From Chitinophaga pendula (GTDB taxonomy: Bacteria > Bacteroidota > Bacteroidia > Chitinophagales > Chitinophagaceae): DNA of 64,000 bases. Position numbers and translations under genes: made by a program. Of the stretch, positions 11,316 to 62,948 are shown in pieces. The notes under the pieces were generated by a model, which was not told the origin of the DNA, made no database searches, and saw only the letters and a list, made by a program, of their open reading frames with translations. The stretch lies in the NCBI RefSeq assembly GCF_020386615.1, contig NZ_CP077769.1, positions 3,224,001 to 3,288,000 on the forward strand. Direction: 5' to 3'. How positions within the stretch are numbered: position 1 is the stretch's first letter; each line of letters starts with the position of its first letter.

Positions 11316-12135
11316 TCAGTTGTTCAGCCAGTCGGTCAGCACTTTAGCCAACTTATCCGCCTGTTGTTCTTTCAGCATGGAGAAGTGATCTCCAGGTGAG
11401 GTGATGGCGGTGAAGCGGTCGCTATGGGCGGACCAGCCCAGGTCTTCAGGAGCTTCTGGCCAGGACGGTATGGCTGCTTTTACCAGGAGGATGGGGCTTT
11501 GCAGGCGACCTTCCACCTGGTATGGGATATTGATATTTGTCAGTTGCAGGTCGAGTAGTTGGGCGACCCAGTCTATTTCTATCTGTTCGCTTTTGACCTG
11601 TGTTTTTACCATTTGTACGACGAAGGCCAGTTTTTCTTCATCGGGCAGGTTGTGAAGCTGTGCGGTGACCCTGTCGGCCCAGTCGGGCGGCATTTTATAG
11701 GCTACTTTATATTGATCGAATGCTTCTCGTAGTACTTGAACGAGTACGGGGATGATCCGTTGGTTCTGTTTGTCCGGTGTTTGTTGTGAGGTTCTGGCAT
11801 CCAGCACCAGGAGGCCGTTGACGGTATCTCCGGCAGCTTCGAGCTGGCGGCATATTTCGTAGGCGACGAAAGCGCCGAAGGAATGGGCGATGAAGCGGTA
11901 TGGGCCTGCCGGCTGTACGGATCTTATACGGGTGATGTGTTCGCGGGCGATGTCTCGGAGGTCTTTTAACGGCATCTCCCCCTCTCCTGCTCCGGTCATC
12001 TGGAGGCCATAGACGGTGAACGGTGAGAGTGCTGCTGCGAGGCTTTCGTATCCTGTTGTGATGCCCTGCGAGCCAGGTAGTAAGAACAGCGGTTGCGGCT
12101 GAGGTCCCAGGTGCATGCGTCGAACGTGGGAGAAG
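11316..12135 (-). other. Terminal thioesterase domain of the second NRPS
   Basis: A type I alpha/beta-hydrolase TE at about residues 2640-2911. PLFLLPGSQG opens the fold, the catalytic Ser is about residue 2724, and a histidine sits in SPGDHFSML near the end. The nucleophile elbow reads A-H-S-F-G-A rather than the usual G-H-S-x-G-G; the Ser is kept, so activity is still expected. Confidence 0.85.
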
Positions 12136-15100
12136 GTCTCCTTTTCTACAGCTGGTAGTACGCCACCTAATTTAGCGGATAGGGAGGCGACGGTCGGATA
12201 GTCGAAGACATCGTTGATGCTCATTTCTATTGCCAGTTCTTTTTTCACCAGGGAGATCAGCCTTACTGCCAGCAGGGAGTGGCCACCCAGTTCGAAGAAG
12301 TCGTCGTGTAGTCCTACCTGATCGACTTCCAGCAGGTTGGCCCATATGTCTGACAATTGTTGCTGCAAGTGTGTCTGCGGGGCGGTATGATGGTCTGCTG
12401 CCTGCGTGGTAGTGACTGGATCGGGTAAAGCCCTGCGATTAATCTTTCCGTTAGGCAGCAATGGGAAGCGTTCCATTTCGACCAGGAAAGCGGGCACCAT
12501 ATAATCGGGCAAAGCAGCTTTCAGATCGGCAATGACCTGTTCCCTATTGAAGCCCGGCGCCGGTATTACATATGCTAAGAGGTTCTTTCCGCCAGCGGCA
12601 TCGGTGCCGGCGATGATGATACCCTGGCTTACGAGCGGGCAGGCATTCAGTTTATTTTCTACCTCTTTGATCTCTACGCGGTATCCACGAATCTTAACCT
12701 GGTCATCTATACGACCCAGGAAGCGGATATTGCCATCCGGCAGGTAGCTGGCTCTATCGCCGGTGCGATAAAATCTAATGTGGCTGTCGGGATGTAACGG
12801 GTCGATGATGAATTTCTCTGCGGTCAGTGTGGGGTTGTTGAGATAACCTGCTGCGACGCCGGCGCCCCCTATCCATAGTTCGCCCGGTACGCCGACAGGG
12901 CATATTTTCCCGGCGGGTGTTACTACCCTGACCTGTGTATCGGAGAACGGTTTGCCTACCGGTACTCCATCTTGATAATCATCATCCGGAGATGCGATAT
13001 GCAGGAGTTTTCCGATGGTTGTTTCCGTAGGGCCGTAGTGGTTCACCACCATACAATGGGGAGCAGTTTGGCGGATGGTATCGATGACGGTGTGGTCGAG
13101 CGCTTCGCCACCGAATATGATAAGTTGCCGTGGTAATAGCGGCATATCGTTATCTGACAATGCTTTCCAGTGAGAAGGTACGATCTTGATGGCATCTACC
13201 TGGTGGTCGTTAAAATACTGATGTAGGGCAGGCGGGTTGCTGGCGGTGTTGCGTGTGAACAGGTGTAAGGAGGCACCTGTTGCCAGTGCGCCGAACAACA
13301 CGGTATTTCCGAGATCGGTGGCGATGCTGGACAGCAGGCCAAAAGAACGGCATGCATGTATCGGCAGCTGCTGGCGCAGGCCGGAGAGGTAGTCTGCCAG
13401 GTTATGATGGGTGACCATTACGCCTTTGGGATTGCCGGTGCTACCGGATGTATAGATCAGGTAGGCCAGCTGTGCGGCGGAAGGGCGTATATCCAGCGAC
13501 GTAGCCGGGAACATGCAGATCAGGTCCCAGTCACCATCTATGGCGATCACTTCCTGGTCGGTGACGGGCAGTTTGTCTGCGCAACGATCGTTGGTGACAA
13601 TGACGGTAGCGGCGGTATCTGTGAGCATGAATCCGATGCGATCTACGAGGGGGAGGTAGTCGGGATCGACTGGTACATAGGCAGCACCTGTTTTGAGAAT
13701 GGCCAGTATTCCGACGATCATATCGAGGGAGCGGTCGATACAGAGTGGTACGAAGGTGCCGGGTTTCACGCCTTTGCTGCGAAGGTAGTTAGCGAGGCGG
13801 TTGGCCCGTTCTTCCAGCTGGCCGTAAGAGAGGGATGCTCCTTCGAATGCCAGGGCGATAGCTTCCGGTTGTTGTGCAGCCTGTGTGCTGAACATGTCCG
13901 GGAAGGTATGTGTAGCCGGAAGGCTTACTGCGGAGGTACCAGCTGCCAGCAGTTGTTGTTCCTGCTGTGGTGTGAGCAAGGATATCTCTTGCAGGGATGT
14001 GGCTTTGCCGGATACGATCTGGCGCAGTACCTGTTCGAAATGTTGTATGATGGACCGTACCTGTTGTTCCGGCAGGAGGTCGCTATTATAGCTGAACAGC
14101 AGGTTGGTTGTAGCACCTATACTGATGATGATGGTCAGCGGATAGTTGGTATGCGGGTGTGCTTCCACCTCTCCTACCTGTAGTTTCCATTGGCGTGCGC
14201 CTACTACTTCGCTGACGGGATAGTTTTGGAAAGTGATGGAGGTATCGAATAGTTCGCCAGCTAAACCTGTCCAGCGGGTAATATCGCTGAGTCCAGCGTA
14301 CTGGTATTCGCGTGAGTGTTGCTGTGCGGTCTGCAGGTCTTGCAGCCAATGGACGATGTTGCTGCCTGGCGTTACTGCGGCATGCAGCGGGATGGTATTG
14401 ATATAGAGACCTACTCTTTGTTCTACACCTATGAGGTCTTCCGGTCTGCCGGAGACGGTGACACCATATGCTACGTTGCTGCGGCCGGTATAGGTAGCTA
14501 ACAGGCAGGCCCATACGCCTTGCATCAGGGTATTGGTCGTGATACGATGTTGTTGTACGCAGTTGTTCATTTGTGTGGTGAAGGATTCATCGAGCAGCAG
14601 TTTTGCGGCCTGATAGTGTCCTATCCCTTTTGTGCGGTCGGCGGTAGCGCTAATGAAAGGTAGTAATGTACCCTCTTCGAGGTCTGCCAGGTATTTACGC
14701 CAGTATTGGGTGATCTGTTCTTTGTTTTGCTGATCGAGATAGCGGATATAGTCTTCGAAGGGATCGATTTCTCCCAAGGCCGGTTGGTGGCCATCGGACA
14801 GTTGTTCGTAGGCAGCCAGCAGGCCTTCCACCAGAATGGGTAGTGACCAGCCATCGAACAGGATATGGTGGGAAGTCCATACCATGTGCCAGGTGGTGTC
14901 ATCCAGGCGGATGAGGGTGATGCGCATGAGCGGGGCGGCGGTGAAGTCGAACCGTTGTTGTGCATCCTGCTGTTCGAAAGCTTTGAGTGCTGCCTGCTGT
15001 CCGGACTTGGGTATATGCATATAATCCATTACGGTGAATGGCAGTGCGGCTGTTTTATAGACACATTGTACCGGGATGGCGAATGCATCGTAGTGGAATG

Positions 15101-18100
15101 CGGAGCGTAGTATGGTATGTTTTTTCACCAGCTGTTCCCAGCTTTGGCGCAGTGCGGGCACCTGTACGTTGTATACGGGGCAGCTGAGCTGTTCGGTGTA
15201 GGTGCTGCTTTCTCCATCGTAGAGACTGTGGAACAGCATTCCTTCCTGTACGCCGGTGAGGCGGTAGATGGCCTCTACCTGTTCACGGCGTGGTTGTCCC
15301 TGCCAGGTATCTTCGAGGAAGCGATCAAGTTCTGCGATACCTGCTACGTTGCTAAGTTGATAGTCTACCGGAGCTAGTTTTGTGTACGGTTGTGCGGCGC
15401 AATGGTTGATCAGCTCCTGCAGGTGGGCCAGATAGGTATCCGCGAGGTGTGTGATGGTTTCCTGTTTGAAATATTGATCCCCTGCTGTCCAATGTATCAG
15501 CAGGCGGCCATCGGTGATGATGGCATTGACGGACAGGGGCGCCAGCAAGGGGAAGCCGGCGGCTACCGGTTGGCCGGCGCTTTCACCGGCCATGGCGATC
15601 ACGCTACCAGTGGCAGTGATATTATCGGACTGGCCCAGGTAGTTGAAAGTGATATCCCAGGGAGTTGCAGCTGTCAGTGACGGTACTTTGCTGATATATT
15701 TCAGGATGCCATATCCCAGTCCTTTGTCGGGGATGTTCCGCAGTTGTTCTTTTATAGTCCGTATCTGTTCTCCCGGTGGCTGCTGTTTATCCAGTGACAG
15801 ATGCAGCGGGAACAGGCTGGTAAACCAGCCGACTGTCTGGCTCAGGTCTGAGGACCATTTACCCTCTTCTCTCCCATGGCCTTCCATGCCGATGTTGACA
15901 CTTGCTGTACCCAGCCAGCCTATGAGTGTGCGGGCCAGGGCGGTGAGCAGGAGTTCGTTGACATCGGTGCGATAGGCTGTGGCGGTATCTTGTAATAGCT
16001 GGCGGGTTGTGTTTTCATTCAGGCTCACGATATGCTGCCAGGTATCTGTCATCGTGCCTGTTTTATCTCCCGGTAATTCCTTCGGCAGTGGCATGTATGC
16101 GGCCTGTACGTGTTCCCAATAAGGGAGCTGTGTGAGCAGGCTGTGATGGCCGGCATATTGTGAGAGCTGTTGTTGCCACTGGCGGTAGGAAGTGGTTTTG
16201 GCGGCTGTTTTACCTGCGTTGGTGATGTCGGGACCTTGCAGCAGGTGTGCCAGGTCCTGGAGCAGTATACGCCAGGAAACGCCATCTACTGCGAGGTGGT
16301 GAATGACCAGCAGTAGCCTGTTGGCCGATTGTGCAGCCGGCGTTTGTATCCAAACTGCCTGTATGATATGACCGGTAGTGATATTGAGGCGGCGATGTGT
16401 ATCATCGGCCAGTGCCGTAATGCCGGCAGACAGCTCTTCATGTGTTGCTGCTGCGCTTAGATCGGCGGTGGTGAGGATATGTTGTGCAGTACCATAGTAC
16501 TGGCTCCATGCTCCATTTACCTGTTCGTAATGGAAACGCAGGGCATCATGGCGGGAAGTCAGGGTGTCCAGTGCATTGGATAAGCGTTCGTGGGTGACCG
16601 CTTTATCCAGTTCCAGTAATACGGACTGGTTAAAATGATTTACCTGATGGCCGGCTACTTCGAAGAACCATTGTTGTATGGGTAGTAGTCCGGCGGCGCC
16701 GGTAAGGGTTCCTTGTTCGCCGACCGCTGTTCCTTCTCCTATTGTTTTCAGCAAGGGCGCCAATCCTTTGATGGTCTGTTGTTGAAAAAGCTGACGGGGA
16801 TGCAGGGAATATCCCGCCTGTTTGAGGCGGCTTACGACCTGGATGGAGATGATGGAGTCGCCGCCCCGTTCGAAGAAGTTGTCCTGCGTGCTTATCTTTT
16901 CTATGCCCAGTAATTCCTGCCATATTGTTGTGAGGAGTGTTTCTTCCGGTGTTGTGGGAGCAACATATCCCGCAAGGCATTGGTTGTCTGTTTCCGGCGC
17001 CGGCAGTGCCTTTTTATCTATTTTACCATTGGCGGTGACAGGTAGTTGCGGCAAGGATATCCATATAGCGGGGATCATATATTCCGGCAGTTGTTGCCGG
17101 AGTGCGGTAATGTTCTTTTCGCGATCGAACAATCCATTAGGTACGACATAGGCTACCAGTCGTTTATTGCCTAAAGGATCGGTATTCAGTAGTACGACTG
17201 CCTGGTCTATTGATTCGGATTGTGTGAGGGCATGTTCTATTTCGCCCAGTTCTATGCGGTATCCTCTTACTTTGACCTGGTCATCTAAGCGGCCGAGGTA
17301 TTCTATATTACCATCGGGGAGCCAGCGGCCCAGGTCGCCGGTGCGATAGAGTTTACCCCCTTTGTCATCAGAGAATGGATGAGCGATGAATTTGTCTGCG
17401 GTCAGTTGCGGTTGATGGAGATATCCGCTTGCTATGCCGGCACCTGCTGCGCATATTTGTCCTGGTACGCCAACGGGGCAAAGGTTGTCCCATGCATCCA
17501 GTATGTATACCTGTATATTGGGAACGGGGGTACCGATCACGATCTGGTGTTCGCGGAGGGGTTTATCGGTGAGGGTGGTACATACGGAGTTTTCCGTTGG
17601 GCCATAAGCGTTAATAAGCCGGACACCGCCCGCGATGAGTTGTGCGCTATCGTCTCTGTAGAGGGCTTCTCCTGCAGAGACGACGGTATGTACGGGACCT
17701 AATACGTCTTTTACCAGGTGCAGGTAGGAAGGAGGTAAGGTGACTACACGGACCTGTTCTTCTTCTACCAAGGACGCGAAACCTTCGGCAGTCTGTAAAC
17801 GCTCTTTGGTAGCCAGTACCAGTATACCGCCACTCAGTAAGGTGTTGAATATTTCGTAGGCGGAAGCGTCGAAGCCCAGGGAGGCAAACTGCAGGTAGCG
17901 GATGCCAGGGGTGAGGCGGAGCGCTTCGCGCTGGCCGAGGGCGAGGTTCACCACACCTTTGTGGGGTACCAAAACGCCTTTGGGCTTGCCGGTGGAGCCG
18001 GAAGTGTATATCACATAGGCGATATGATCCGGCGTGATGGCAGGATGCAGTATAGGCGTAGTAGATATATTTTCGATCTCATCGACCAGCATCATTTGCT

Positions 18101-20051: not shown

Positions 20052-20063
20052 ATTACCGGGATT

Positions 20064-38000: not shown

Positions 38001-41000
38001 ATTAACGGTTCTTACGGCTGGTCTGGCATAATCGGCAGGTATTTCCAAAGGCAGTACGCCGTTTAGATGATCTTTCCAATATGAGAGCTGGGTATCGAGG
38101 AAATGGCCGGCTACATATTTACGTTGCCAAACGGCATAATCTGCATACTGAATAGAAAGAGGAGACAGGTTGTGCTCTTCTCCCCTGCTGTAAGCTGTGT
38201 ATAAGTCTGGCAGTTCGTTAAAAAATACTAGAGCAGAGATGTCGTCACAGACGATATGATGCATGGTGATGAGGAGCCATTGCTCCTTGCTATGCAACTG
38301 TAGCAAATGCGCACGCAGCATATGGTCTGCGGTCAGGTCGAAAGGTTTGTTGATCAAAGCGGTTATAACGGTATCTATGTCATCCTCTTCTGCCACATTT
38401 AATTGTTCCAATGTCCATCTGTCTTTTTCTCCTATTACCTGATATAAAGCATCTCCTTCCCTGGCGATGACGGTCCGTAATGTTTCATGCCGGTTCACGA
38501 TCTGCTGCAGGCTTTGTTGCAATGCCGGCACCTGTAATGATCCAGTTAATTTAAATACCACGGGTACATGATATTGTATGCTGCCTTCCAGCTGATCTAT
38601 GAACCACATCCGCTCCTGGTTATAAGACAGAGGTATCTTGCGGGGGCGTATAAACGCTTCTACTTCTGGCAATGTGCTGTTCAGCAAGGCTGCCTGCCGT
38701 CCATCTGCGACAGGTGCATGCGGGGGCTTGGGTAAAAAGCCACCTTCCTGTAGTTCCCTGATACTATCTTTTACTGCACGTGCGATAAAATCGATGTCCT
38801 CATCTGTATGTGCATCGGATAAGAAGCAGGTGCGTCCTTCCCATACGTATACTCCTTTCTCTACCAGGTGGTAGAAGAAGAGGTCCATATTGCTGTTGAT
38901 ATTAAAGTAGAACAGCGAGCCAAAATTATTGACCTCCATTGGTACTGCATTCTTTTTGAAGAATGCGTTGATATCATTCACCAGGCGGGAGGTGCGGAGG
39001 TTCAGTTTTTCCTGTAAGGCCGGCCCTCTTCGTTGCAGTTCTTCCAGCAGTGCCAGGGTGGCAGCCATGCTCAGCGGATGCTTGCAGAAAGTGCCTGCGA
39101 AGAAGGTGGTATCTGCTTCGGGGAATGACTGATCTCCATATTCCCAATAGCCACCATCCAGGGCATTCATGAATTGTTTTCTACCTCCGATGATACCAAT
39201 AGGCAGCCCACCACCGGCAATCTTACCATATGTGGCCAGATCTGCGGTAACGCCAAAATGGGCTTGTGCGCCACCGGGATGTATCCTGAAGCCGGTGATC
39301 ATCTCATCAAATATGAGCACGATCCCTTCTTCAGCAGTCATTTTACGTAATGCGGCCAGTAGTTGGGCCGGTTGGTATCCGGGTTTACGGCTTTGTACTG
39401 GTTCTACGAGCAAGGCAGCTAACTCGTGTGCATGCCTGCGAACCTGGTCTACTACATTTGGGTTGGTATAATCAAACACCAACACGTCCGACACCATGCT
39501 ATCCATGACACCCGGAGCCATTGGTACACTTTCTGGAGACGTTTCGATATCGACGGGAGCAGCCAGTGTACCATCAAAGTGGCCATGGTAAGATCCGGCG
39601 AAAACGGCGATCTTGGATTTACCTGTTACTGTCCGTGCTAAACGTGTTGCTGTCATGACGGCCTCGGTACCGGAGTTGTGGAAACTTACACGCTCCATTC
39701 CTGTCAGTGCGGCAACAAGTGTTGCCACTTTACCTGCCATAGGTGTTTGCGGGCCGAGTGGGTATCCTTGTTGTAATTGGCTGGCAAGCGAATTGGAAAT
39801 AACCGCAGGTTGATGACCTAACAGATTAACGCCGAAACCCATTGCCAGATCTACATATTCGTTGCCATCTATATCCCTGATCTTAGATCCATATGCGGCG
39901 GTGGCGACGATCGGATACAGTATTTCTTTTGTTGAAAAGCGGAATCCTGCTGATGTACGATTGTCTGCCAATACGGACCTGTATTGTTGTGTCAGCGCTT
40001 TTGACGCCTTTGTTTTATTGATATATCGTTCGATAAAAGTGTCCAGATAGTTTTGTTGTTTATCCGACAAGTTAGCGGCACCCGGTTTTGTTTCCATTTT
40101 GGGAAAAATGGATGCGCGGGGTTTAGGCGTTGCCGAAAGCTTGGGATGCGCGTTGCCATTAGACAAGCTATTGACAACAGCTGTTGCTGCTTTCCCGGCT
40201 AACAAAGGGTCTGCTTTCAGCCCTTTGTTTTCATTAACGGTGCCGGCCAATGGTTGTTGGGGAGTATTGAGCGGCGTTCCTGTTGCTGGTACAGGCGCCG
40301 GCGCCTGTGCTGATAACAATCTGAGCTGTTGGCTCATGATCTCTTTCTGTACTTCCAGTTGTGAAGACATCAGTTCAAGTTGCTTTTGCAACAGGTCGGT
40401 ATGTCCTGCGATAGCAACCGGGTGTGTGGATGGTGGTAAAGGTGTTACTTCCGGAGCGGTGCTGATCTCTGCGATAGCAGGCTGTGTAACTGGTGCCACG
40501 GTCTCCGTAACGGGTAAGGCTGGGATTTCTACCGGTATACGGTCAGCTATGTAGGTCGCCATCAGATCCAGTGTATTTAACTCTTCGAAAAGCTGCCGGA
40601 TGGAGAAGTTGACATCGTACTTCTTTTCTATACGTCTTATTGCGCTTGACAATATCAATGAATCTGCTCCTAATTCGAGGAACCGGGTGTATATATTGAT
40701 CTCCGCAGGAGGTGTCTTTAGCAGATTGCCGAAAGTAGCTGTCAGATAAGACAATACTTCGTTGCGATGGTTGGGATTGGCGAAGGCCGGGGTCCCGGCA
40801 GTCAGTGCTTTGTTCATAACTTTAGTATGCTCCACGGTAGGTGATGATAAGGCGGATGAAAGAGAAGGTGATGCGCTGTTTACAACAGGTGCTGACGCTT
40901 CGATCCAATAACGCTGTCGTTGGAATGGATAGGTCGGCAAGGAGATGCGTACTGGCCGGTCCTTTCCGACAAACTGTTCCCATTTAATGGGAACACCTTT

Positions 41001-44000
41001 TATGTGCAGGGAGAGTAGGCGTTGCATCATTGTATCCCAGGAAGAATGTCCCATTTTCATACTGGCCAGCAGGTTATCTTCTTCGTAGGCTGCGGTCAGT
41101 TGCACCATAGACAACAGGTTAGGCTGGGGGCCGAGTTCCATGAGTATCTGTGCACCTGACTCTTTTATGGTGACCATGCTGCGAGAGAACAATACCGGTA
41201 ATACGATATGTTGGCACCAGTACTCTGGTTGGGTGATCTCTTCCTTTGCAAACTGGCCGGTGATATTAGATACGAGGGGAAGTTGCGGAAGATGATATTT
41301 TACTGTGCGGGCAATGTCCAGGAATTCGTCTAGTATAGGTTCCATGAGTGGGGAATGAGAAGCCTGGGCGATGAGCAATGTGCGCCCGCTTATTCCCAAT
41401 GGTTCCAGGGATTCCAACACCGCATTAACAGCCTCACTTTTTCCCGATATTACGGTTAATTCAGGGCCATTTACAGCGGCTACTGCCAGTGATCTTCCAT
41501 AAGGCGCGATAATCTCCGTCACCTGTTGTTCCGCGGCAAAAATAGTTGCCATTGCACCCGGTTCTTTGATGGATTGCATTAACCTAGCTCTTGCGGCAAC
41601 TAATCTCAATCCATCATCCAGGCTGAATACGCCTGCTGCATATGCTGCAGCATATTCTCCGACACTATGTCCTGCCACCATAGAAGGTTCGATGCCCCAG
41701 GATCTCCAGACCGCTATCAGCCCACAGGATATGGCGTAGATCGCCGGCTGGAAATAAGTCATCTGTTGCAAGGTCCGGTTGCTGGCGTTTTCTTCCCAGT
41801 TATATAGCAGGTCCAACAGGGAATATTCCCATTGGGTAATCAGGTATTGGTTACAATGGTCTATTACCTGGCGGAATGCCGGCAGGTGTTCATACAGTTC
41901 CTTTCCCATGCCATGGTACTGAGATCCTCCGCCGGTGAACAGCCATACAGGCGCTATTGCGTTCCGTAGTATCGTTCCCGATAGTATCTGATGCGTCTCC
42001 TCTGCTGCCAGGAAAGCTTTTAGCTGGCTCTGCGCATCTGCTGTATTGCGCGCTGCAAGGGCTAATCTATAGGGTTGATGATCGCGGGTATAGATGGTAT
42101 TGTAAGCGATAGTGGCAATATCTGCTTTATTTCCTTCCAACCATTTATCATAGGCGGCTGCCATATCTGACAGGGCGGCTACGTTCTTTGCATGCAATAA
42201 TACCGGATAGGATGGCCATGCAGGTGCCGCAGGAGATGTAGGATCAGCAGCACCTGCCATCGCTTCCAGTATTACATGTGCGTTGGTGCCACTTAATCCA
42301 AAGCTGCTCACCCCAGCTCTGCGGATACCGGTCGCAGACGGCCATTCCCTGCCTTTGTCTGATACCTTTGTTTTCAGCCTGTCCCAAGGTATGAGGTGGT
42401 TTCCTTCCTGGTAATTCAGGTTGGATGGAATGTATTGGTGTTGTAGACACAGTACTGCTTTGATAAATCCGGCTACGCCGGCGGCGGCCTCCAGGTGTCC
42501 GATATTGGTCTTAACGGCGCCTAATATCAGCGGCGTATCTATCCGGCGATCCTTGCTGTATACAGCATCCAGGGCTTGTACTTCTATAGGATCTCCCAGC
42601 TTTGTACCGGTGCCATGTGTTTCTACATATTCTATTGTTGCGGCAGCTACGTCTGCGACGGACAGCGCCCGTTCTATGACCTGTTGCTGAGCGATGCCAT
42701 TGGGTGCGGTGATCCCATTGCTGAGCCCATCGTGATTAATAGCAGAGCCCTTGATGACCGCGAGGATGTCGTCGCCAGCTGCTAATGCATCTTCATATCT
42801 CTTTAATACGACTATTCCGCATCCTTCTCCTCTAATGTATCCATCGGCATTGTTATCGAAAGCCTTTACCTTACCTGTTGGCGAAAGAGAACGGATACGA
42901 CATAATTTTATGGTGGTATCCGGCGTCAGCATGAGATTTACGCCACCTGCCAGTGCCAACGGCGTTTCGCCCTGTAAGAGACTGAGGCAGGCCTGGTGTA
43001 TTGCGACCAGGGAAGAGGAGCAGGCTGTATCCAATTGCATTACCGGGCCATGGAAGTCTAAAAAGTATGCGATACGTCCGGCTGCGATGTTACGTTCGGT
43101 GCCCAAGGTGCTAAAAGCATCTTTGAAGTAGGTAATATCGGCATCTTTCAATATTAGTTGCTGATAATCGTCTGTACACATGCCGATGAAAACGCCATTA
43201 TTACTGCCTCTTAGCGTAGACGGTGCTATACCTGCATTTTCCAATGCTTCCCAGCAGACTTCCAGCAACAGGCGTTGTTGGGGATCAATGCCGGTAGCTT
43301 CCTGTCTGGATATACCAAAAAATGCCGGATCAAAATGTGCTACTTCTTCCATAAATCCACCTTGGGTGGTATACATCTTACCTAACGTTTCCGGGTCCTT
43401 ATGGTAGTGTTCCTGTGCGTTCCAGCGAGTGGGCGGCGTATCGACTACTGCGTCTGTTCCCTTTGTTAACAGTTCCCAGTAAGCAGCCGGTGAATTAGCG
43501 CCACCGGGGAGCCGGCATCCCATTCCTATTACTGCGATGCGGGTATCTTTTTTATACACCTGCGATACCTGCTCCGGACGATCATTATTCCTGGTTTCTT
43601 GTTGTTGTTGTGCCAGGTAGCTAGCCAGTGAGTTGACCTGCGGGTAATTGTATATCACTGTTTTGTCTACCGGTATCTGCAGGTGGGCCTCCAAGTCTGC
43701 CGCAAGATTTACGGCCAGTATAGATGTCATGCCATAGGAAGCGAAAGTGGATTGCTCTTCCAATTCTTCATCTGTCACCCGCATTTTTGTTTTCAGCCAT
43801 TCACTCAACCAGATGATCAATCTGTTTACTGCCAGCGGTGTGGCTGATGGAGATAAGGCCGGCTTTTCATTGGATCTTGTCTCCAATGCTTCCAGTTCTT
43901 TAATTGTCTCGGTATATATGCCATTTTGAAAATCTTCAGCGAATGCATAACGTTTGACTTTACCGCTGGTGGTCTTGGTTATTTTCCTTACGGGGAGTAC

Positions 44001-45587
44001 ATATTTTACCTCCAGGCCGGTACGCGCTGCTACCAGGCGTTTTACCTGCCGGATCATCGGGTAAAATTTCTCTCTGCTGTTCTTATTTAATATGAATACT
44101 ACGATGGCTTCTGATCCTGTTTGTTCATCGGGTATGCCACAAGCTACTACTTTACCGGTTTCGATGCCGGGTATTTCTTCCAGCAGCTGTTCTATATCGT
44201 GCGGATAGATATTGGCACCATTTACGAATATGATATCTTTTACGCGTCCGACTACAAAAAGACAATTATCCAATAAAAAGCCAGTATCTCCCGTATTTAG
44301 CCACTCATTTACGATGGCATTGGCTGTAGCGGTTTCATTATTGTAATAGCCCTTGGTAACAGCGGCACCTTTGATCCATATGATACCTACGTGGCGGTCC
44401 TGTAACGCGAGGCCATTTTCGTCTGCAATCTTAATACTGACGCCATCAATGGTCTTACCCAGATTGACTACTTCGAGGCGTTCCGGTATCGTATGCGTAG
44501 TTACTTTTTCTGCTGTCAGTAAAGAGCCTACAGACAGTGCATTCCTGTCTACAAAAACGCTTTTAACAGGTACATGTATTCCGGGCCAGGTGACCTGTAA
44601 TGTGGCTTCTGCGAGGCCATATCCTGTGCACATGGACAGCGGATCTAATCCGAATGGTGCCAAGGTCTTCATAAACTGCCTACATAAGGATGCGGATATA
44701 GGTTCGGCACCGTTCAATATACATTTGATATTAGAGAGATCCCATCCTGCGCCTCTCTCTGGTGAAAACTGTCCGAGGAAATATTTATATCCGAAATTCG
44801 GTGAGCAAGTAACTGTTGCGCGATACTCCGCGGTTTTTTGCATCCACAGTACGGGATTGCGTATAAACAGATCCGTAGGCATCAGATATTGGTTACACGT
44901 TGCTCCCAGTGGATACAAATGGAATCCTATTAATCCCATATCATGTGTAAGCGGCATCCAGCTTAAATATGCATCTGCGTTATCAGTATTATGAGCTTTG
45001 ATCGCTGCGAAAATATTGGTTAATAAATTCTCGTGTGTGAGCACCACTCCTTTGGGGTTTCCGGTGGAGCCGGAGGAAAACTGTAAAAATGCGATGGAGT
45101 TACCATCTGCGGGGTGTATAGTACCCTGCTCCTGCCGGTGTTCGCCATCTTCTACAAATAACACGTCGGTCAGGCCATTAGTCCCTGTATTGTTATCATC
45201 TGTTGTTATAGATAATTTTTCATAGTTCGATCGTTTTGTAATCAGATAGGGATGTTTTAGGAAAGCAATCACCTTTGATAGTTTAGAGGCGTTCTCTCCC
45301 TGATAAGTGATGCTGACCGGTACAGGAATAATGCCGCCCAATATGCAGGCCCAGAAAAGCTCCAGGAAGGTTTTATTGTCGTCAAGCTGAAACACCAGTT
45401 CATCCCCTATTTTAATTCCTTTTTGCTGCAGGTAGTATAGCCAATTGAGTGCTTTATGATAAAGTTGGTGGTAGGATAAGAAGGTGGATTTGTCTGAACC
45501 TGTTATGAAGGTGATACCCTGTTCTTTGCTGTCTTTGACCTGTTCAATTAGGGCTATTAATGAATTTATGTCCTGTTTGGCATTCAT
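20064..45587 (-). CDS. Hybrid FAAL-PKS-aminotransferase-NRPS megasynthase, modules 1-5 (8507 aa), iturin/mycosubtilin-like
   Basis: A single uninterrupted 25.5-kb frame. Domain order by residue: FAAL (~1-560), ACP1 (Ser622), KS (~680-1105, Cys856), AT (~1190-1560, Ser1308), ACP2 (Ser1643), long Pro/Ala linker with a short coiled coil (~1690-1835), PLP aminotransferase (~1850-2290, Lys2122), C1-A1-PCP1 (~2310-3345), C2-A2-PCP2-E2 (~3355-4850), C3-A3-PCP3-E3 (~4865-6370), C4-A4-PCP4 (~6390-7430), C5-A5-PCP5 (~7455-8490), and an acidic docking tail. It activates a fatty acid, extends it by one acid extender, transaminates the beta-keto group to a beta-amino acyl chain, and adds five residues. 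The layout equals MycA plus MycB of mycosubtilin synthetase fused. The start ATG at 45587 precedes a convincing FAAL N-terminus. Epimerases sit in modules 2 and 3. The gene ends 12 bp before the second synthetase. Confidence 0.94.
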   Translation of the reverse strand: MNAKQDINSLIALIEQVKDSKEQGITFITGSDKSTFLSYHQLYHKALNWLYYLQQKGIKIGDELVFQLDDNKTFLELFWACILGGIIPVPVSITYQGENASKLSKVIAFLKHPYLITKRSNYEKLSITTDDNNTGTNGLTDVLFVEDGEHRQEQGTIHPADGNSIAFLQFSSGSTGNPKGVVLTHENLLTNIFAAIKAHNTDNADAYLSWMPLTHDMGLIGFHLYPLGATCNQYLMPTDLFIRNPVLWMQKTAEYRATVTCSPNFGYKYFLGQFSPERGAGWDLSNIKCILNGAEPISASLCRQFMKTLAPFGLDPLSMCTGYGLAEATLQVTWPGIHVPVKSVFVDRNALSVGSLLTAEKVTTHTIPERLEVVNLGKTIDGVSIKIADENGLALQDRHVGIIWIKGAAVTKGYYNNETATANAIVNEWLNTGDTGFLLDNCLFVVGRVKDIIFVNGANIYPHDIEQLLEEIPGIETGKVVACGIPDEQTGSEAIVVFILNKNSREKFYPMIRQVKRLVAARTGLEVKYVLPVRKITKTTSGKVKRYAFAEDFQNGIYTETIKELEALETRSNEKPALSPSATPLAVNRLIIWLSEWLKTKMRVTDEELEEQSTFASYGMTSILAVNLAADLEAHLQIPVDKTVIYNYPQVNSLASYLAQQQQETRNNDRPEQVSQVYKKDTRIAVIGMGCRLPGGANSPAAYWELLTKGTDAVVDTPPTRWNAQEHYHKDPETLGKMYTTQGGFMEEVAHFDPAFFGISRQEATGIDPQQRLLLEVCWEALENAGIAPSTLRGSNNGVFIGMCTDDYQQLILKDADITYFKDAFSTLGTERNIAAGRIAYFLDFHGPVMQLDTACSSSLVAIHQACLSLLQGETPLALAGGVNLMLTPDTTIKLCRIRSLSPTGKVKAFDNNADGYIRGEGCGIVVLKRYEDALAAGDDILAVIKGSAINHDGLSNGITAPNGIAQQQVIERALSVADVAAATIEYVETHGTGTKLGDPIEVQALDAVYSKDRRIDTPLILGAVKTNIGHLEAAAGVAGFIKAVLCLQHQYIPSNLNYQEGNHLIPWDRLKTKVSDKGREWPSATGIRRAGVSSFGLSGTNAHVILEAMAGAADPTSPAAPAWPSYPVLLHAKNVAALSDMAAAYDKWLEGNKADIATIAYNTIYTRDHQPYRLALAARNTADAQSQLKAFLAAEETHQILSGTILRNAIAPVWLFTGGGSQYHGMGKELYEHLPAFRQVIDHCNQYLITQWEYSLLDLLYNWEENASNRTLQQMTYFQPAIYAISCGLIAVWRSWGIEPSMVAGHSVGEYAAAYAAGVFSLDDGLRLVAARARLMQSIKEPGAMATIFAAEQQVTEIIAPYGRSLAVAAVNGPELTVISGKSEAVNAVLESLEPLGISGRTLLIAQASHSPLMEPILDEFLDIARTVKYHLPQLPLVSNITGQFAKEEITQPEYWCQHIVLPVLFSRSMVTIKESGAQILMELGPQPNLLSMVQLTAAYEEDNLLASMKMGHSSWDTMMQRLLSLHIKGVPIKWEQFVGKDRPVRISLPTYPFQRQRYWIEASAPVVNSASPSLSSALSSPTVEHTKVMNKALTAGTPAFANPNHRNEVLSYLTATFGNLLKTPPAEINIYTRFLELGADSLILSSAIRRIEKKYDVNFSIRQLFEELNTLDLMATYIADRIPVEIPALPVTETVAPVTQPAIAEISTAPEVTPLPPSTHPVAIAGHTDLLQKQLELMSSQLEVQKEIMSQQLRLLSAQAPAPVPATGTPLNTPQQPLAGTVNENKGLKADPLLAGKAATAVVNSLSNGNAHPKLSATPKPRASIFPKMETKPGAANLSDKQQNYLDTFIERYINKTKASKALTQQYRSVLADNRTSAGFRFSTKEILYPIVATAAYGSKIRDIDGNEYVDLAMGFGVNLLGHQPAVISNSLASQLQQGYPLGPQTPMAGKVATLVAALTGMERVSFHNSGTEAVMTATRLARTVTGKSKIAVFAGSYHGHFDGTLAAPVDIETSPESVPMAPGVMDSMVSDVLVFDYTNPNVVDQVRRHAHELAALLVEPVQSRKPGYQPAQLLAALRKMTAEEGIVLIFDEMITGFRIHPGGAQAHFGVTADLATYGKIAGGGLPIGIIGGRKQFMNALDGGYWEYGDQSFPEADTTFFAGTFCKHPLSMAATLALLEELQRRGPALQEKLNLRTSRLVNDINAFFKKNAVPMEVNNFGSLFYFNINSNMDLFFYHLVEKGVYVWEGRTCFLSDAHTDEDIDFIARAVKDSIRELQEGGFLPKPPHAPVADGRQAALLNSTLPEVEAFIRPRKIPLSYNQERMWFIDQLEGSIQYHVPVVFKLTGSLQVPALQQSLQQIVNRHETLRTVIAREGDALYQVIGEKDRWTLEQLNVAEEDDIDTVITALINKPFDLTADHMLRAHLLQLHSKEQWLLITMHHIVCDDISALVFFNELPDLYTAYSRGEEHNLSPLSIQYADYAVWQRKYVAGHFLDTQLSYWKDHLNGVLPLEIPADYARPAVRTVNGHVATFHLGNTLVQELKKLSRQQGVTLYMTLLAAFKVLLYRYSGQEDICVGTPVAGRAKEEMEALIGFFVNTLALRTQLSPVQNFTELLQVVRQEVLTAFEHAEVPFEKVVAAVVKERDLSRNPLFQVLFSLEDAPEASHLKLDGIILELQPFKQTTTQFDLAFALSVDEKGLNGKIEYSTDLFDITTIGRMAVHYEQLLHAIIQHPDHRIRTLQITDSEEYNRIATFSVASGNVVKDSSDTLVSLFKKQVARTPDQPALELQGQQLSYRQLDQRSDSVATLLIKAGLNGNDPVPIIMSRSREMVIAILGILKAGGAYVPIDPKYPAGRIKYILDDISAGITLADRAAAEMLQSLTENILVIDERSMGIEQVSKPLDLPVATDMAYIIYTSGSTGRPKGVMVEHHAVVNLIHAQHRQFNITEEERILQFSNYTFDASVEQLFLALLNGATLVLLPEEILQDNRQFEQFINEARITHLHATPGFLEHIHPMYGTALKRVIAGGDLCKRELAIRWKGVADFYNEYGPTETTVTAIEFLSAATVPLLDGALPIGRPLADVSAYILDDEGNQSPVGISGELYLGGDQVARGYWKQPQLTAERFITDKFSQSANARLYKTGDIARWLPDGNIVYLGRKDDQVKIRGYRIELGEIASVLEEMNTVQEAIVLAKTDSTGDKQLVAYLVTNKGFEKDAAISWLAAKLPEYMLPRVFVQLEQIPLTANGKIDKTQLLSLDISKLRMTEYTPPRNELEKALVAIWTTLLETERIGIHNNFFESGGHSLLAMRMRALLQDQLQIDVPVRTLFTYPTIAGLADYLADSSAHFSLPPIPPATRPERIPLSYNQERLWFIDQVDGSLAYHMPAAVSLEGALDITALENAFRTIITRHEVLRTVFKTEAGAPCQHILSAENWQLHRLDISAFTQDTVAIQQQIDQLASQPFDLSNDYTLRAHLLQQTTDKYLLVLTLHHIAADGWSTPILFRELQALYQEYTTAQPANLPAPPIQYADYAIWQHQHINGEWMEHGLAFWTKNLTGTEILQLPIDYPRPDVQSLRGSTHRFLLNNSLYGALKALSVQEGTTLFVTLLTAFKTLLHRYTGQEDIIVGTPVAGRSQEELNNVIGFFANTVALRSDLRQDPSFLNLLQQVKENTLSALEYQDIPFKKVVDAVSIDRDPAYSPLFQVMFTLQHAADLPEGTSLGSVKVIPRRVTQETSNFDITLLITEADDVLSCTIEYSTALFHPDTIRRMQSHWELLLQGITQSPGARISTYPIVGKAEMAVLHRQHLSSIPIPADDQTLATLFEAQVLRTGAAVAAVYGDHSITYAALNTAADDLAHYLQTSGIGVGSLVPVCMERSIGLLTGILAIVKTGAAYVPIDPEYPAERIRYMLETCKAPLLITHSNHQKLFSNIAASELLLIDRFESNVTKQPIVAVKRAITDLAYVIFTSGSTGLPKGVMVPHKGVINLVNWHQQAFSVDTASKATVVAGEGFDAMGWEIWPYLLAGATLYFIPDQLRLSMSHLAATIANMGITHSFLPTALVHEFIGSMQGRTAALKYLLTGGDKLSATAVNGLDYKVVNNYGPTENSVVATSYVLTDRDARHAPPIGTPINNVQVYVLNNAQQYCPAGVAGELYIGGIQLADGYLEQPALTAAAFIPDKFTGHPGAKLYRTGDIVKWNTQGQLEYVGRKDTQVKIRGYRIELGEITSVLLQYQPVKQAIVIDRTDNRNVKRLAAYIVTEETLDIAAVTTFLRSRLPDYMLPAWFISLDELPLTANGKIDVAALPNPGPLKDNTKQFVPPANETEQMLVNIWQELLGLEQIGVYDNFFELGGDSIITIQVVSRAKRAGYDLHPRDLFIRQHIKGLASLLDTRGSESNRGEQGLLTGVSGLLPIQQWYLGQLTDTPRHFNQSVVLNLDKRVPAGIVENAISTLVSRHDALRFSYKPTETGWQQTYGNDNHGWELVDLSHIAPALLGDAIVKHGNYYQRQVDISDGSMMIAVMINTPAAEKYNRLMLIIHHLAVDGVSWRILLEELNIILNNTGQENNGLLDKGYSYRQWHNALTNYSQLQRLKDQLPYWQQLVLTYQPLTTDKTSPATLTYADYGTIEAILDAQLTTDLLLHTSKAYRTDVNDLLLTALSLALSTWSGREKVYIGLEGHGREEIGVDVDSSRTVGWFTTLYPVALTMDANQTPGNQIKSVKEQLRKVADKGIGFGVLKHLLHSPSLQGQDPWDVVFNYLGQSDHILGQGELLSLAPETAGEDVDPLHSTTTRLALDSVVTRGQLMLTWRYSKHHYDQTTINNIANAFTHWLNILVDHCRSVKYNAPTPADFDLGAYMTYDELDAFLDEIDNGTPRRTQVSAVYRLSALQEGMLFHSLYDSESGTYVEQFNARLEKLDVPVFEESWRLLLQRHTILRTGFSYDRFSIPVQYVYREIPLLMHVHDLRQQPATACEAFKQKDRREPFNLNSAPLMRFNLLQTGDTTYECLWTFHHLLIDGWSIPVLIEELLSIYEALIHGKLPAAIEEDKYEDYIRYQQQQDKEKETSYWRTYMQGIEGGTLLPFIDATANRNTGEGIYEDLQLPLTLAESEIILQYSQQHHITLNTLMQGVWAYLLYRYTGKTHACYGVTVAGRPADLPQVEQRVGLYINTLPLHGHIQRTDKITAWLLQLQDEQLKSREYQYAALNEIKKWTAISGDLFDTLLVFENYPVSKVITAQPWALEIVAPALQEHTNYPLQVTVEQAQHIHVSFRYNQDLLKHHYVQAISGHFRNTLLQVANGADTWGDIDMLTPEENTQLLQHFNDVTTPYPADQTLVQLFEQQVQLRPDAIAISFGDTSLTYLAVDQQADRLAAWLRSQGVGKDVLVPLCIERSPEMIIAILGIVKAGGAYVPIDVTYPAERIAYLIEDTAAKVIVSSRKSRHCIPHDPQLQIITLEDEILLTTATGIKVPVPAPDDLAYVIFTSGSTGKPKGVMVEHKGMLNHLFAKINDLQLDHTSVIAYTASYTFDISVWQMFAALLCGGRTVIYTTDDILRPVALTASVDAEGVTILELVPSYLASLLHEEQTAVMQQLKYLLVTGEAVSQPLLAQWFGHPHYRHIPVVNAYGPTEASDDICHHIMYQAPDTQLVPLGKPIQNMRIYILDEAGALCPLGVAGEICVAGVGVSRGYLNRPELTAEKFIKDPFSNDQHSRLYRTGDLGTWLPDGTVAYFGRIDEQVKVRGYRIELGEIESILLQHEAVRETVVVAKADENGNKRLIAYVVAADTLDTVAVMTYLKGKMPEYMIPSWLIQLEKLPLTTNGKVDKKALPVPDMKNLADSYVAPRNDIERTLCRIWEELLHVSPVGISDNFFELGGDSIITIQLVSRAKRAGYNLHPRDIFRHQQISSLSSLLLTGNKAIITTEQGLLEGDSRLLPVQQHFFETVGVNADHYIQDVLLNVQKEITAEQLSTAIHELLRFHDALRFKYTFAADNWHQEYGQYTGSVEVVNLGTATPANYREQLLHQVHKYQLSLDITAGIVCRFVLFRTPAAEQYNRLLIVVHHLAVDGVSWRILTEDLNNLLKGQETLATQLKGTSYRQWRTALEQYGQRKSTWAQLPFWKKVTSAYQPLRTDNRYDMPVTTSDIILHETTIAETYTTRLLYDAGKAYNTGVEELLLTALALTLSAWNSRAVVNLGLEAHGREDIAPDVDSSRTIGWFTSLYPVMLTVKQDLTAADAIKSVKEQLGKITDKGIGYGVLKYINQEETLQGHQPWDVTFNYLGQIDNMLQQDTILSLAEETTGMSSEARINVPDKLMIDASVSNGKLIIQWRYSKHHFSVAGITDLSEHFNNHLIQLLDHCASQQQPVPTPMDFRLGDVISYEDLDKFLDTPFNGAPRRNQVNGLFRLSNLQEGMLFHTLYNPDSITYREQLSAELSLLDTGIFIRSWELLLDRFSILRSGFYVEDFSILVQCEYKKVPLPVTILDYSAMEEQQQQEAVRAYEQMDLQRGFDLENPPLMRISLIKTATAKYRLLWTYHHILLDGWSMPVLMEDLLDTYEALAAGKQVEVGPVDRYGDYIHYLGNLDGEATKTYWQQYLSTLTAPTLLPFIGNAIDRTRAAGKQEVATLTLDNQLTTAVNSFAQKAHITQNTLMQGIWTILLSKYSGRQDVTFGVTVSGRPEDMPGVEQRVGLYINTLPLHQYLDEQQHINDWLLQLQEAQLQSREHQYTALKDIQGWIGITGDLFDTLMVYENYPVNEVFNARHWQVKINDLRFHEQTNYPLSIIIAAADKIDIGFHYNSDLLQAYYVEQMLAHFKEILTQIISGTARQLRDIQVLTTAQQHQLLHTFNNTDAAYPEQETILSLFERQVKACQDNIALTFEDRTITYAELNRQASSLGSYLISKGVQPEQLIPICVDRSPEMIIGILGILKAGAAYVPIDPAYPEDRIAFILNDLAANILLTTQAYKTSFDQWFPAVEKILLDDHWQQIQAADPSITANILPHHLAYIIYTSGSTGQPKGVMIEHRNIVRLFETDRPLYDFNEKDVWSLFHSFCFDFSVWEMYGALFYGGKVVIVPGNITRDTAAFSELLHREGVTVLNQTPTAFYVLQDALIANTRSLQVRYVIFGGEALDPAKLKPWSQLYPHCRLVNMYGITETTVHVTYQELGDDQLNSRSLIGKPIPTLRVHILDNNGQLVPVGVAGEMYIAGAGLARGYLNRPELTALRFVPAIYGTDHTARWYRSGDLGRWLPDGTIEYLGRIDDQVKIRGYRIELGEIESKLAQCPSISQAVVLAKTDGAGNKQLVAYVVPKATFDKITVQSWLLERLPEYMVPALWIALESIPLTVNGKVDKKALPELDAQILATKAYVAPATPAEHTLVHIWQELLGIANIGVHDNFFELGGHSLLATRVVAAIRRELETDIAIRDLFTYNTVATLAARITEQERTVALPPVTSRAENAPAPLSFSQERLWFIDQLEGTVQYHIPIVARLKGKLDKKVLSRALQQLLQRHEALRTVIVTQGDTLLQQVKDNAGWEVQLINVPEYKKDEAALRQYIQNLISQPFDLQTDFLFRAHLIASGRSEHILVLTMHHIVSDGWSIGILVEELAALYNGLLNGQTDILPALSVQYADYAAWQRRHLGSVIDQQLSYWRQQLAGVTALQLPLDFPRPAIQSIRGAMLTTQLDHTLTARLKQLADKEGVSLYMTLLAAFKVLLYRYSGQEDVAVGSPISGRTRHEVEHLVGFFVNTITLRSHLKQEMTFTSLLQQMKETTLQAYEHQDVPFERIVEAVVKERDTSRNPLFQVAFALHNTPEIPALQLGDVQLTSYDAEHNTAKFDLTFSMVESDKGLDLDIEYCIDLFREDTIRRMAAHFYQLLLSITAAPATTIAQLNILGKEEQQLLAATFNNTAVDYPRDKNIVDLFSEQVQASPDAVAVIFEGSSLTYGELDKRADQLAHYLVQKGVTPETLIPVCLERSLELMVAILGILKAGAAYVPVDPDYPLSRIRYMLDDTAANIIITADNYRQQLTDIGSTVEWIYLDRLAATLEQWETKQPLPAADPGHLAYIMYTSGSTGQPKGVMVTHRNVTSLVKQPNYTTLTASDTILSAGSLSFDATTYEYWGMLLNGGKLLMMAEDTLLDTALLKKVLHEKEVTRMFFTTGWFNQLVETDITVFEKLSAVLTGGEKMSEKHVAVFRHTYPHIEISNIYGPTENTTFSLSYNINARGHKESTPIGIPLNNRQAYVLDALQQLVPVGIPGEIYVSGEGIARGYLNRAALTAEKFLPNPFVNTPDARMYRTGDLGRWLPDGSIEYLGRVDDQIKIRGFRIELGEIESTVEKSDMVTRAFVIVRKNKSDQPELIAYVLPAEHFDKGALLAFLRSNLPQYMVPALLVPVSYFPLNANGKIDKSALPEVKEDDLVQQQYIAPSTPAEKTLTAIWQELLGVSSIGIMDNFFELGGHSLLVTRVIAAIRNAFGIEVPVRIIFQLATIETLARYIEVSQEELSPVDEDSQTFRI
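20100..23240 (-). other. NRPS module 5 (C, A, PCP), Ile/Val-type code
   Basis: Pocket residues read D-A-Y-F-L-G-I-T-F, closest to published Ile (DAFFYGITFK) and Val (DAYWWGGTFK) codes, so a branched aliphatic residue is expected. The C domain is of LCL type (LSFSQERLWFIDQ, HHIVSDG) after a non-epimerising module. The PCP is followed by about 25 residues ending in an acidic tail that should dock to the second synthetase. Confidence 0.68.
23280..26440 (-). other. NRPS module 4 (DCL-C, A, PCP), Thr code
   Basis: Pocket residues read D-F-W-N-I-G-M-V-H, the canonical Thr code. The C domain begins FRLSNLQEGMLFHTL and has HHILLDG, the form expected after an epimerase. There is no E domain, so L-Thr is expected. 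Its side-chain hydroxyl is an alternative cyclisation site. Confidence 0.82.
26470..31010 (-). other. NRPS module 3 (DCL-C, A, PCP, E), Dab-type code
   Basis: Pocket residues read D-I-W-E-L-T-A-D-D, which I recall as the 2,4-diaminobutyrate code of pyoverdine-type synthetases. The E domain keeps HHLAVDG, though its second motif is EAHGRE rather than EGHGRE. D-Dab is the prediction. No gene for Dab synthesis is in the window. Confidence 0.65.
31020..35530 (-). other. NRPS module 2 (LCL-C, A, PCP, E), Leu code
   Basis: Pocket residues read D-A-W-F-L-G-N-V-V, an established Leu code. The PCP is GGDSI, and the E domain has HHLAVDGVSWRIL and EGHGRE intact, so D-Leu is expected at position 2. Confidence 0.8.
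35550..38665 (-). other. NRPS module 1 (C, A, PCP), unassigned code
   Basis: The condensation domain that joins the beta-amino acyl chain to residue 1 carries HHIVCDD (His2443-His2444) instead of HHxxxDG. The A-domain pocket reads D-A-E-H-I-G-E-V-T, which I cannot match to a known substrate; Glu at position 239 is frequent in codes for basic residues. There is no epimerase, so an L residue is expected. Confidence 0.7.
38718..40040 (-). other. Embedded PLP aminotransferase (GSA-type AMT) domain
   Basis: A class III/GSA-type aminotransferase (SFHNSGTEAVMTATRLART, FAGSYHGHFDGTLA, LIFDEMITGFRIHPGGAQ, Lys2122 in TYGKIAGGGLPIG). Located between the PKS ACP and the first condensation domain, it should convert the ACP-bound beta-keto acyl chain to a beta-amino acyl chain, as in MycA. 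Confidence 0.88.
40548..43565 (-). other. PKS extension module KS-AT-ACP
   Basis: KS with DTACSSSL (Cys856), HGTGTKLGDP and NIGHLEAAAG, all catalytic residues intact. The cis AT has GHSVGE (Ser1308), an arginine in ARARLMQ suited to a carboxylated extender, and QASH (His1411) where malonyl ATs usually have HAFH. The ACP has LGADSL (Ser1643). There is no KR, DH or ER, so the beta-keto group is left for the aminotransferase. Confidence 0.88.
43608..45587 (-). other. Fatty acyl-AMP ligase (FAAL) and loading ACP
   Basis: The ligase has FLQFSSGSTGNPKG (A3) and SWMPLTHDMGLIG, both typical of FAALs that pass an acyl-AMP to an ACP rather than to CoA. The C-terminal KITKTTSGKVKR holds the catalytic lysine. 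The following ACP carries GMTSI (Ser622), with Thr in place of the usual Asp before the phosphopantetheine Ser. Chain length cannot be read from sequence. Confidence 0.88.
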
Positions 45588-56253: not shown

Positions 56254-56259
56254 AATATA

Positions 56260-56607
56260 TTATTTTACCTGTTCATCCGGGACATAAATTACCTGTCCAT
56301 TTTCCAACTGATAGGCAGTACCCAGTCTTACCCCGTTTCCGGATTGTTGTTTGCCTGTCAGCTTACTTGAGATGATTTGGTTGTCTTTTTTTTCCAGCAC
56401 TTCCATTTCTCCATTTTTGTCCTTCCGGGTGAGTGTCCATTCGCTATCTTTTTTCAAGAGGTCGCTACCGGACAACAATGTGAATAGTGCTCCAATGACT
56501 GCTACGATAAAGGCGATACTGACATCAAATAGCTGGGCTACTCCCGCTATAGGATCATCTTCTATCGATTCTTCGGCGTGTCCTATCTTACTTCTCAGAA
56601 ATCGCAT
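56260..56607 (-). CDS. DUF2149 family small membrane protein
   Basis: A 115-aa protein with EDDPIAGVAQLFDVSIAFIVAVIGALFTLL: the acidic DDP-x-x-G-V-x-x-L-F-D motif just before a single membrane helix is the DUF2149 signature. The C-terminal ~65 residues are polar and should be periplasmic. The fold resembles ExbD-type proteins, and the gene lies between the ExbB-like and CobN-like genes with 5- and 6-bp gaps. It probably forms a proton-channel complex with the ExbB-like protein. Confidence 0.85.
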   Translation of the reverse strand: MRFLRSKIGHAEESIEDDPIAGVAQLFDVSIAFIVAVIGALFTLLSGSDLLKKDSEWTLTRKDKNGEMEVLEKKDNQIISSKLTGKQQSGNGVRLGTAYQLENGQVIYVPDEQVK

Positions 56608-56612
56608 TCCTA

Positions 56613-57167: not shown

Positions 57168-57188
57168 TATGAAAGTTTATGCAGATGA

Positions 57189-62942: not shown

Positions 62943-62948
62943 AGTCTA

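Follow-up and report, generated by a model that had tools for sequence, protein, structure and literature searches.

A two-gene PKS-NRPS line of Chitinophaga pendula, iturin-like in plan and probably of Chitinophaga descent, predicted to make a seven-residue cationic lipopeptide

Two adjacent genes of Chitinophaga pendula encode a synthetase laid out much like those of the Bacillus iturins, which raises the question of whether the likeness is one of descent or of plan. The genes lie in the window, the whole 64,000-nucleotide stretch of DNA analyzed here, which corresponds to positions 3224001-3288000 of the single contig of the 7.66-Mb host genome (GCF_020386615.1, contig NZ_CP077769.1; Bacteroidota; Chitinophagaceae). 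Genes A and B very probably form one PKS-NRPS line for a seven-residue cationic lipopeptide, of Chitinophaga descent and iturin-like in plan only. Both are minus-strand genes, separated by 12 bp, with the following parts (amino acids and their D configuration are predictions).

20064..45587, minus strand: gene A, 8507 aa; FAAL-ACP-KS-AT-ACP-AMT and modules 1-5
43908..45545, minus strand: FAAL (fatty acyl-AMP ligase), A residues 15-560
43608..43814, minus strand: ACP1, A residues 592-660, GMTSI
42258..43550, minus strand: ketosynthase (KS), A residues 680-1110
41088..41966, minus strand: cis-acyltransferase (AT), A residues 1208-1500, GHSVGE and QASH
40545..40757, minus strand: ACP2, A residues 1611-1681, GADSL
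38724..40076, minus strand: aminotransferase (AMT), A residues 1838-2288
35559..38630, minus strand: module 1, C-A-PCP, code DAEHIGEVTK, basic/Lys-like
30984..35495, minus strand: module 2, C-A-PCP-E, code DAWFLGNVVK, Leu (D)
26433..30944, minus strand: module 3, C(D-type)-A-PCP-E, code DIWELTADDK, 2,3-diaminopropionate (Dap) (D)
23283..26393, minus strand: module 4, C(D-type)-A-PCP, code DFWNIGMVHK, Thr
20121..23219, minus strand: module 5, C-A-PCP, code DAYFLGITFK, Ile
11316..20051, minus strand: gene B, 2911 aa; modules 6-7 and TE
19869..20051, minus strand: putative N-terminal docking stretch of B, a weak TubC_N match (20 bits vs a Pfam cut-off of 26)
15309..19796, minus strand: module 6, C-A-PCP-E, code DAYTVAAVCK, Phe (D)
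12168..15269, minus strand: module 7, C(D-type)-A-PCP, code DLTKIGHIGK, Asp
11328..12110, minus strand: type I thioesterase (TE), AHSFG

Domain order and E placement were taken from profiles built on the window's own domains. Protein A reads FAAL-ACP-KS-AT-ACP-AMT, C-A-PCP, C-A-PCP-E, C-A-PCP-E, C-A-PCP, C-A-PCP, and protein B reads C-A-PCP-E, C-A-PCP-TE, with E after the PCPs of modules 2, 3, and 6. A Pfam scan of B and of A in three pieces found the KS, the AT, a class-III aminotransferase, and the thioesterase, together with 8 AMP-binding domains (the FAAL and seven A domains), 9 carrier domains, and 10 condensation-type stretches, which equal 7 C plus 3 E domains, as Pfam places both under one condensation type. 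All three E translations contain HHLAVDGVSW, and the C domains of modules 3, 4, and 7, each of which follows an E, score as the D-accepting type. HHxxxD is kept in all ten C and E domains and the carrier serine in all nine carriers; the active-site motifs of the KS (DTACSS, ETHGTGT, and KTNIGH), AT (GHSVGE), AMT (TYGK), and TE (AHSFG) are likewise found. In the C domain of module 1, HHxxxDD replaces HHxxxDG; the DD form recurs in the first C domain of three other Chitinophaga lines, and the DG form in that of six others and of the Bacillus lines. The domain set of the original prediction is thus borne out, both open reading frames, the motifs, the E domains of modules 2, 3, and 6, and the TE being present, and the absence of the AMT or epimerases, a possibility it had raised, is not what we find. 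It had also raised the possibility of further NRPS or PKS genes in the same operon; no other A domain is listed near the pair, the nearest lying at genome position 3290287 (150 of 165 candidates scored).

To a large extent the layout is that of the iturin family. FAAL-ACP-KS and the AMT are on the first protein, there are seven residues, E domains in modules 2, 3, and 6, and a TE, and the plan L-D-D-L-L-D-L is the iturin pattern, so that the equality claimed at the outset in residue number, AMT place, and E positions holds on the domain map. Other features part the two. The window line has a cis-AT, whereas the Bacillus lines use a separate transacylase, a FenF-like ORF of ~400 aa adjoining both of them (for FenF in this role, see the portion of PMC3039948 cited here); the only separate AT in the window belongs to a PKS locus at its right end. 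The Bacillus lines carry a C-PCP pair between the AMT and module 1, which the window line lacks, and have three NRPS proteins, split after C2 and C6, whereas the window line has two. The protein split, said to be equal, is not, as the last Bacillus boundary falls after the C domain of module 6 and the one here before it. The adenylation codes were said to differ, and they do at all seven positions, with residues unlike those of mycosubtilin, iturin, and bacillomycin. By the features tested, the line is largely iturin-like in plan and is not a member of the iturin family.

To establish how the window line is related to others, we compared FAAL, KS, AMT, C, E, A, and TE domains, leaving ACP and PCP aside. 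Identity to the window's FAAL is 54-62% in nine Chitinophaga lines versus 43% in MycA, and for the KS 62-67% in those nine versus 41%. Likewise, the AMT has 65-76% identity with Chitinophaga and 51% with Bacillus counterparts, the TE 36-39% with four Chitinophaga TEs and 18% with that of MycC, and the five best matches listed for each window A domain are all from Chitinophaga. In the phylogenetic tree of E domains (28 rows, all the E domains detected by the profiles in the decoded regions), 22 Chitinophaga and 6 Bacillus rows separate at 100/100. The C tree, built from 117 of 120 domains (three short ones were dropped; 101 Chitinophaga and 16 Bacillus rows), splits first by subtype and then by phylum, and it is because of these subtypes that three label changes are needed between Chitinophaga and Bacillus.

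The AMT tree has 143 rows, comprising 87 of 88 chosen loci, 44 of 229 listed proteins, and 12 sequences from decoded lines, with L077 excluded for its long branch and L076 as too short. The window's AMT falls inside a 31-row set (SH-aLRT 100) made up of genus rows, proteins named Chitinophaga, and proteins P0001, P0015, and P0125, while the Bacillus rows lie elsewhere. Together with the FAAL-ACP-KS-AT-ACP-AMT start, this places the line with the Chitinophaga FAAL-KS-AT-AMT synthetases. However, 15 of the 29 genus AMT loci (L112-L126, 44-55% identity to the window) fall outside that set, which implies that the genus holds a second AMT type, and 10 of the 15 join the Bacillus rows in one weakly supported set (41). 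Given this second type, the AMT tree would speak against a simple phylum story. For ten of L112-L126 the open frame measures 1628-1650 aa, a length that leaves no room for a multimodular NRPS.

These comparisons bear on the reading that a true iturin-family synthetase moved to the Bacteroidota by horizontal transfer and had its A domains changed later. Transfer would explain the shared residue number, AMT place, and E positions at 2, 3, and 6, and the best solved relative of the window's AMT is that of MycA (6kfm), a match that its E value of 6.9e-154 puts beyond chance. However, E, C, AMT, FAAL, KS, A, and TE are all nearer to Chitinophaga, the 100/100 separation in the E tree parts the two sources, best-hit positions against MycA-C agree for only 2 of 10 C and E domains, and the cis-AT, the missing C-PCP pair after the AMT, and the different split all differ from what was to be transferred. 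We reject transfer from the iturin family on these comparisons as extremely improbable, and with it the kinship to iturinic synthetases that had been proposed. Instead, the line probably arose within the beta-amino-acyl synthetases of Chitinophaga, and what it has in common with the iturins is plan and not descent.

Such synthetases are widespread in the genus. AMT matches at E 1e-100 occur in 32 of 79 genus genomes, host included, and 26 matches of at least 63% identity in 15 of the 79, again with the host; in this genus search only the window's own AMT exceeds 75%. The nearest match of named source outside the Bacteroidota, among the matches listed, is the AMT of the cyanobacterium Hydrococcus (63%). 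The host alone carries four FAAL-KS-AT-AMT lines, the window's included, and at least 124 A-domain matches at E 1e-60 in its 7.66 Mb (150 of 165 candidates scored). Its further lines are at 1503715, 2150311, and 2503555 of the contig (G000:C1; L005-L014). One of them is a three-module protein ending in E, after which no NRPS protein of at least 400 aa follows up to 1555000, with NRPS genes upstream at 1.42-1.48 Mb; the other two have ten modules (with SbnB ~2 kb before) and seventeen. A sister line in another genome of the genus (G080, C3 926001-986000; L131-L133) has, like the window's, seven modules, a FAAL-KS-AT-AMT start, QASH in its AT, and an AMT at 76% identity, but it is a single protein of 11838 aa with E domains in modules 2, 3, 4, and 5 and other residues.

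Ten-letter adenylation codes were extracted by alignment, and residue calls were calibrated on the chitinopeptin synthetase. Mycosubtilin has the sequence Asn, Tyr, Asn, Gln, Pro, Ser, Asn, and applied to Bacillus spizizenii, the code method recovered all seven residues. The chitinopeptin yardstick is a 14-module NRPS at C24:546.6-600.7 kb of G016, a genome taken as that of C. eiseniae. Its codes are consistent at 14 of 14 positions with the published composition of chitinopeptin A (PMC9248904), where Ala, Lys, and Dap were placed by their position and by elimination. The five D residues of chitinopeptin fall where this NRPS has its five E domains. The one mismatch is an L-Leu, placed at position 13 in PMC9248904 and at 12 by the codes.

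Window codes 2, 3, 4, 6, and 7 are letter-identical to the chitinopeptin codes for Leu, Dap, Thr, Phe, and Asp, and code 5 is one letter off that for Ile. Code 1 has no exact reference and has 7 of 10 letters in common with the Lys code, and the best relatives of its A domain reach 48-50% identity. The predicted peptide would thus be basic (Lys-like)-D-Leu-D-Dap-Thr-Ile-D-Phe-Asp. The Phe and Asp of finished chitinopeptin are beta-hydroxylated (PMC9248904); by analogy, Phe6 and Asp7 in the window's product may be hydroxylated too. A3 has 61% identity with the A domain for Dap in the chitinopeptin line, which is its best match in the G016 genome. The code DIWELTADDK recurs in six of nine other decoded Chitinophaga regions (last letter unread in one) and had no exact-text match in the literature searched; its tie to Dap by way of chitinopeptin helps in reading other Chitinophaga lines. 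No SbnB-type Dap gene is present in the window. The host genome has two SbnB matches outside it, one under the family cut-off and one over, the latter ~2 kb before another AMT line of the host, and the chitinopeptin cluster of C. eiseniae also lacks sbnB (PMC9248904). MbtH has no match in the host genome.

The chitinopeptin line is among the closest known systems: it shares with the window line the genus, five codes (Leu, Dap, Thr, Phe, and Asp), and the plan of its first seven modules (L-D-D-L-L|D-L, split after module 5 as in the window line). One reading makes the window line a shortened descendant of a chitinopeptin-type synthetase, as plan and protein split of modules 1-7 are identical. 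Yet best-hit positions agree for only 1 of 10 C and E domains, and in C. eiseniae the protein of the chitinopeptin NRPS opens with a C domain and includes no AMT, whereas FAAL to AMT are fused here. Chitinopeptin synthetases have 14-16 modules (14 in that of C. eiseniae) and other residues, several of them beta-hydroxylated, in contrast to the window's seven modules. Direct shortening is, in our judgment, quite unlikely.

Puwainaphycins have more residues than the window's seven. As described in the part of PMC4219810 cited here, the puwainaphycin synthetase of cyanobacteria resembles the window line in its FAAL start, its PKS extension with an AMT, and its beta-amino lipid, and its product is a cyclic peptide, but FAAL, ACP, and PKS are separate proteins, and it has a reducing PKS module and a monooxygenase. 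The isopedopeptins of Pedobacter cryoconitis share with the window's predicted peptide cationic character, Dap, Thr, D-Phe, and a C-terminal Asp; unlike it, they have nine residues, a 3-hydroxy acid, and a lactone (from the portion of PMC7979671 used). TEs occur in at least 11 of 119 genomes of Pedobacter, the genus of G003. Chitinocin was ruled out as the product by its mass of 1852 Da and other composition (PMC10239826, section cited). The original prediction was right in seeing a beta-amino-fatty-acid lipopeptide line for seven residues in a Bacteroidota host, but the class is not new outside the Firmicutes, as puwainaphycins, with a beta-amino lipid (same part of PMC4219810), and chitinopeptins A and B (PMC9248904) were already known. 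No description of a heptapeptide of the predicted make-up was found in the literature searched, mostly outside subscription journals, and the window's particular heptapeptide is likely undescribed. The prediction offers a concrete structure, testable by mass, for a cationic lipopeptide in a genus rich in unexplored synthetases.

For the lipid, the sequence motifs are informative. AT motifs follow a rule for the extender unit, and the window's AT has QASH, versus HAFH in the host's three other AMT lines; read by that rule, QASH points to methylmalonyl or mixed use. C. eiseniae has a stand-alone FAAL-ACP-KS-AT-ACP-AMT protein whose AT has HASH, and it makes 3-amino acids both 2-methylated and unmethylated, the lipid of chitinopeptins A and B being a 3-amino fatty acid with or without a 2-methyl group (PMC9248904). 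From these and the AMT, the lipid of the window's product is presumably a 3-amino acid. The stand-alone protein (L147, G016:C24 at ~375.3-382.1 kb) has no NRPS in the 370-450 kb interval and lies ~165 kb from the chitinopeptin NRPS. As it is the only one of the two AMTs found in G016 not fused to an NRPS, L147 is a candidate for feeding chitinopeptin its 3-amino acid in trans.

Taken together, the domain order suggests the following assembly. The FAAL would activate a free fatty acid and load ACP1 (for a review of FAALs, drawn on in part, see PMC11837247). The KS and integrated AT would then add one extender, malonyl or, by QASH, methylmalonyl, on ACP2, and the AMT would convert the beta-keto group to a beta-amine. 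The seven modules would add a Lys-like basic residue, D-Leu, D-2,3-diaminopropionate, Thr, Ile, D-Phe, and Asp, and the TE would release the product, probably as a ring.

How unusual is the D/L pattern? An E was detected in 19 of 96 modules in nine other Chitinophaga regions, some cut at their ends. If modules are independent, this rate yields the exact E pattern with a probability of ~0.003; for a line of seven modules with the number of E fixed at three, the figure is 1 in 35. Both figures refer to one comparison, uncorrected for the many lines that could be compared. E may be undercounted, as in some Chitinophaga regions a D-type C follows a module without a profile-detected E. Of 68 AMT proteins that each contain three or more modules (from 229 listed proteins, by window-built profiles, counting modules of the same protein only), none has the L-D-D start. 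The pattern is nevertheless not special to the iturins and the window line, since the chitinopeptin line opens with it, and a functional reason shared among such lines is possible. The Bacillus/Chitinophaga pair is a test case for unrelated lines reaching the same D/L pattern.

Where the ring would close is less clear. Iturins close theirs on the beta-amine, and the L-D-D-L-L-D-L ring pattern leads us to give slightly more weight to the same closure here. The fuller version of this idea, that the iturin ring plan (a beta-amino acyl group and L-D-D-L-L-D-L, with head-to-tail closure at the beta-amine) had an independent origin in the Bacteroidota, in a cationic, Dap/Lys-containing, alpha-methylated form, is rather unlikely as a whole; if true, it would mean that the chirality pattern was selected for a membrane-active ring and is not a relic of a Bacillus gene family. 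Alternatively, the product may be a lipodepsipeptide or a side-chain lactam, with the ring formed through the hydroxyl of Thr4 or the amine of Dap3 and the beta-amine left free. This has the precedent of the chitinopeptins, whose ring closes on Thr2 although the A/B lipid carries a 3-amine (PMC9248904), and the chitinopeptin TE is the nearest (39%) of the five other TEs compared. Against it, the 36-39% identity to all four Chitinophaga TEs does not discriminate, for which reason the TE was set aside as a guide to closure; with Thr at position 4, the ring would span four residues; the combination of L-D-D-L-L-D-L and a beta-amino acid is that of the iturin ring; and in the isopedopeptins, cyclo[3-hydroxyalkanoyl ... 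Asp], the ring closes on the lipid 3-oxygen, the counterpart of the beta-amine (PMC7979671, portion used). We regard this free-amine product as a serious possibility, though one with less than an even chance. That the cluster is silent or decaying and yields nothing is very unlikely. In favor of this reading, neither a transporter nor a Dap gene was recognised among those genes of the window that were scanned, but the frame across A and B is open over ~34 kb with motifs intact, and P0234, a public protein of 2911 aa orthologous to B, has 84% identity to it overall and both codes identical. No counterpart of A accompanies P0234 among the best 120 of 317 relatives, where the window's own A is absent too.

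Around the pair there are other loci. Another PKS/NRPS locus, distinct from the pair and probably a trans-AT system, begins ~16 kb upstream of A, at 61998, and occupies 61998-64000 of the window (genome 3285998-3335923). It includes a free AT, a 752-aa AT-domain protein whose part within the window matches PfaD, and three giant KS-rich proteins, one of them with a C-A pair. Between A and this locus are CobN, TonB-receptor, regulator, and other genes; a CobN/Mg-chelatase-like protein and ExbB-like and TonB receptor genes occupy 52324-59447, between both biosynthetic loci. Near the cluster on its other side, at 7142-8281, is a match to the histidine decarboxylase model NF002748, with 478 bits against a cut-off of 305.
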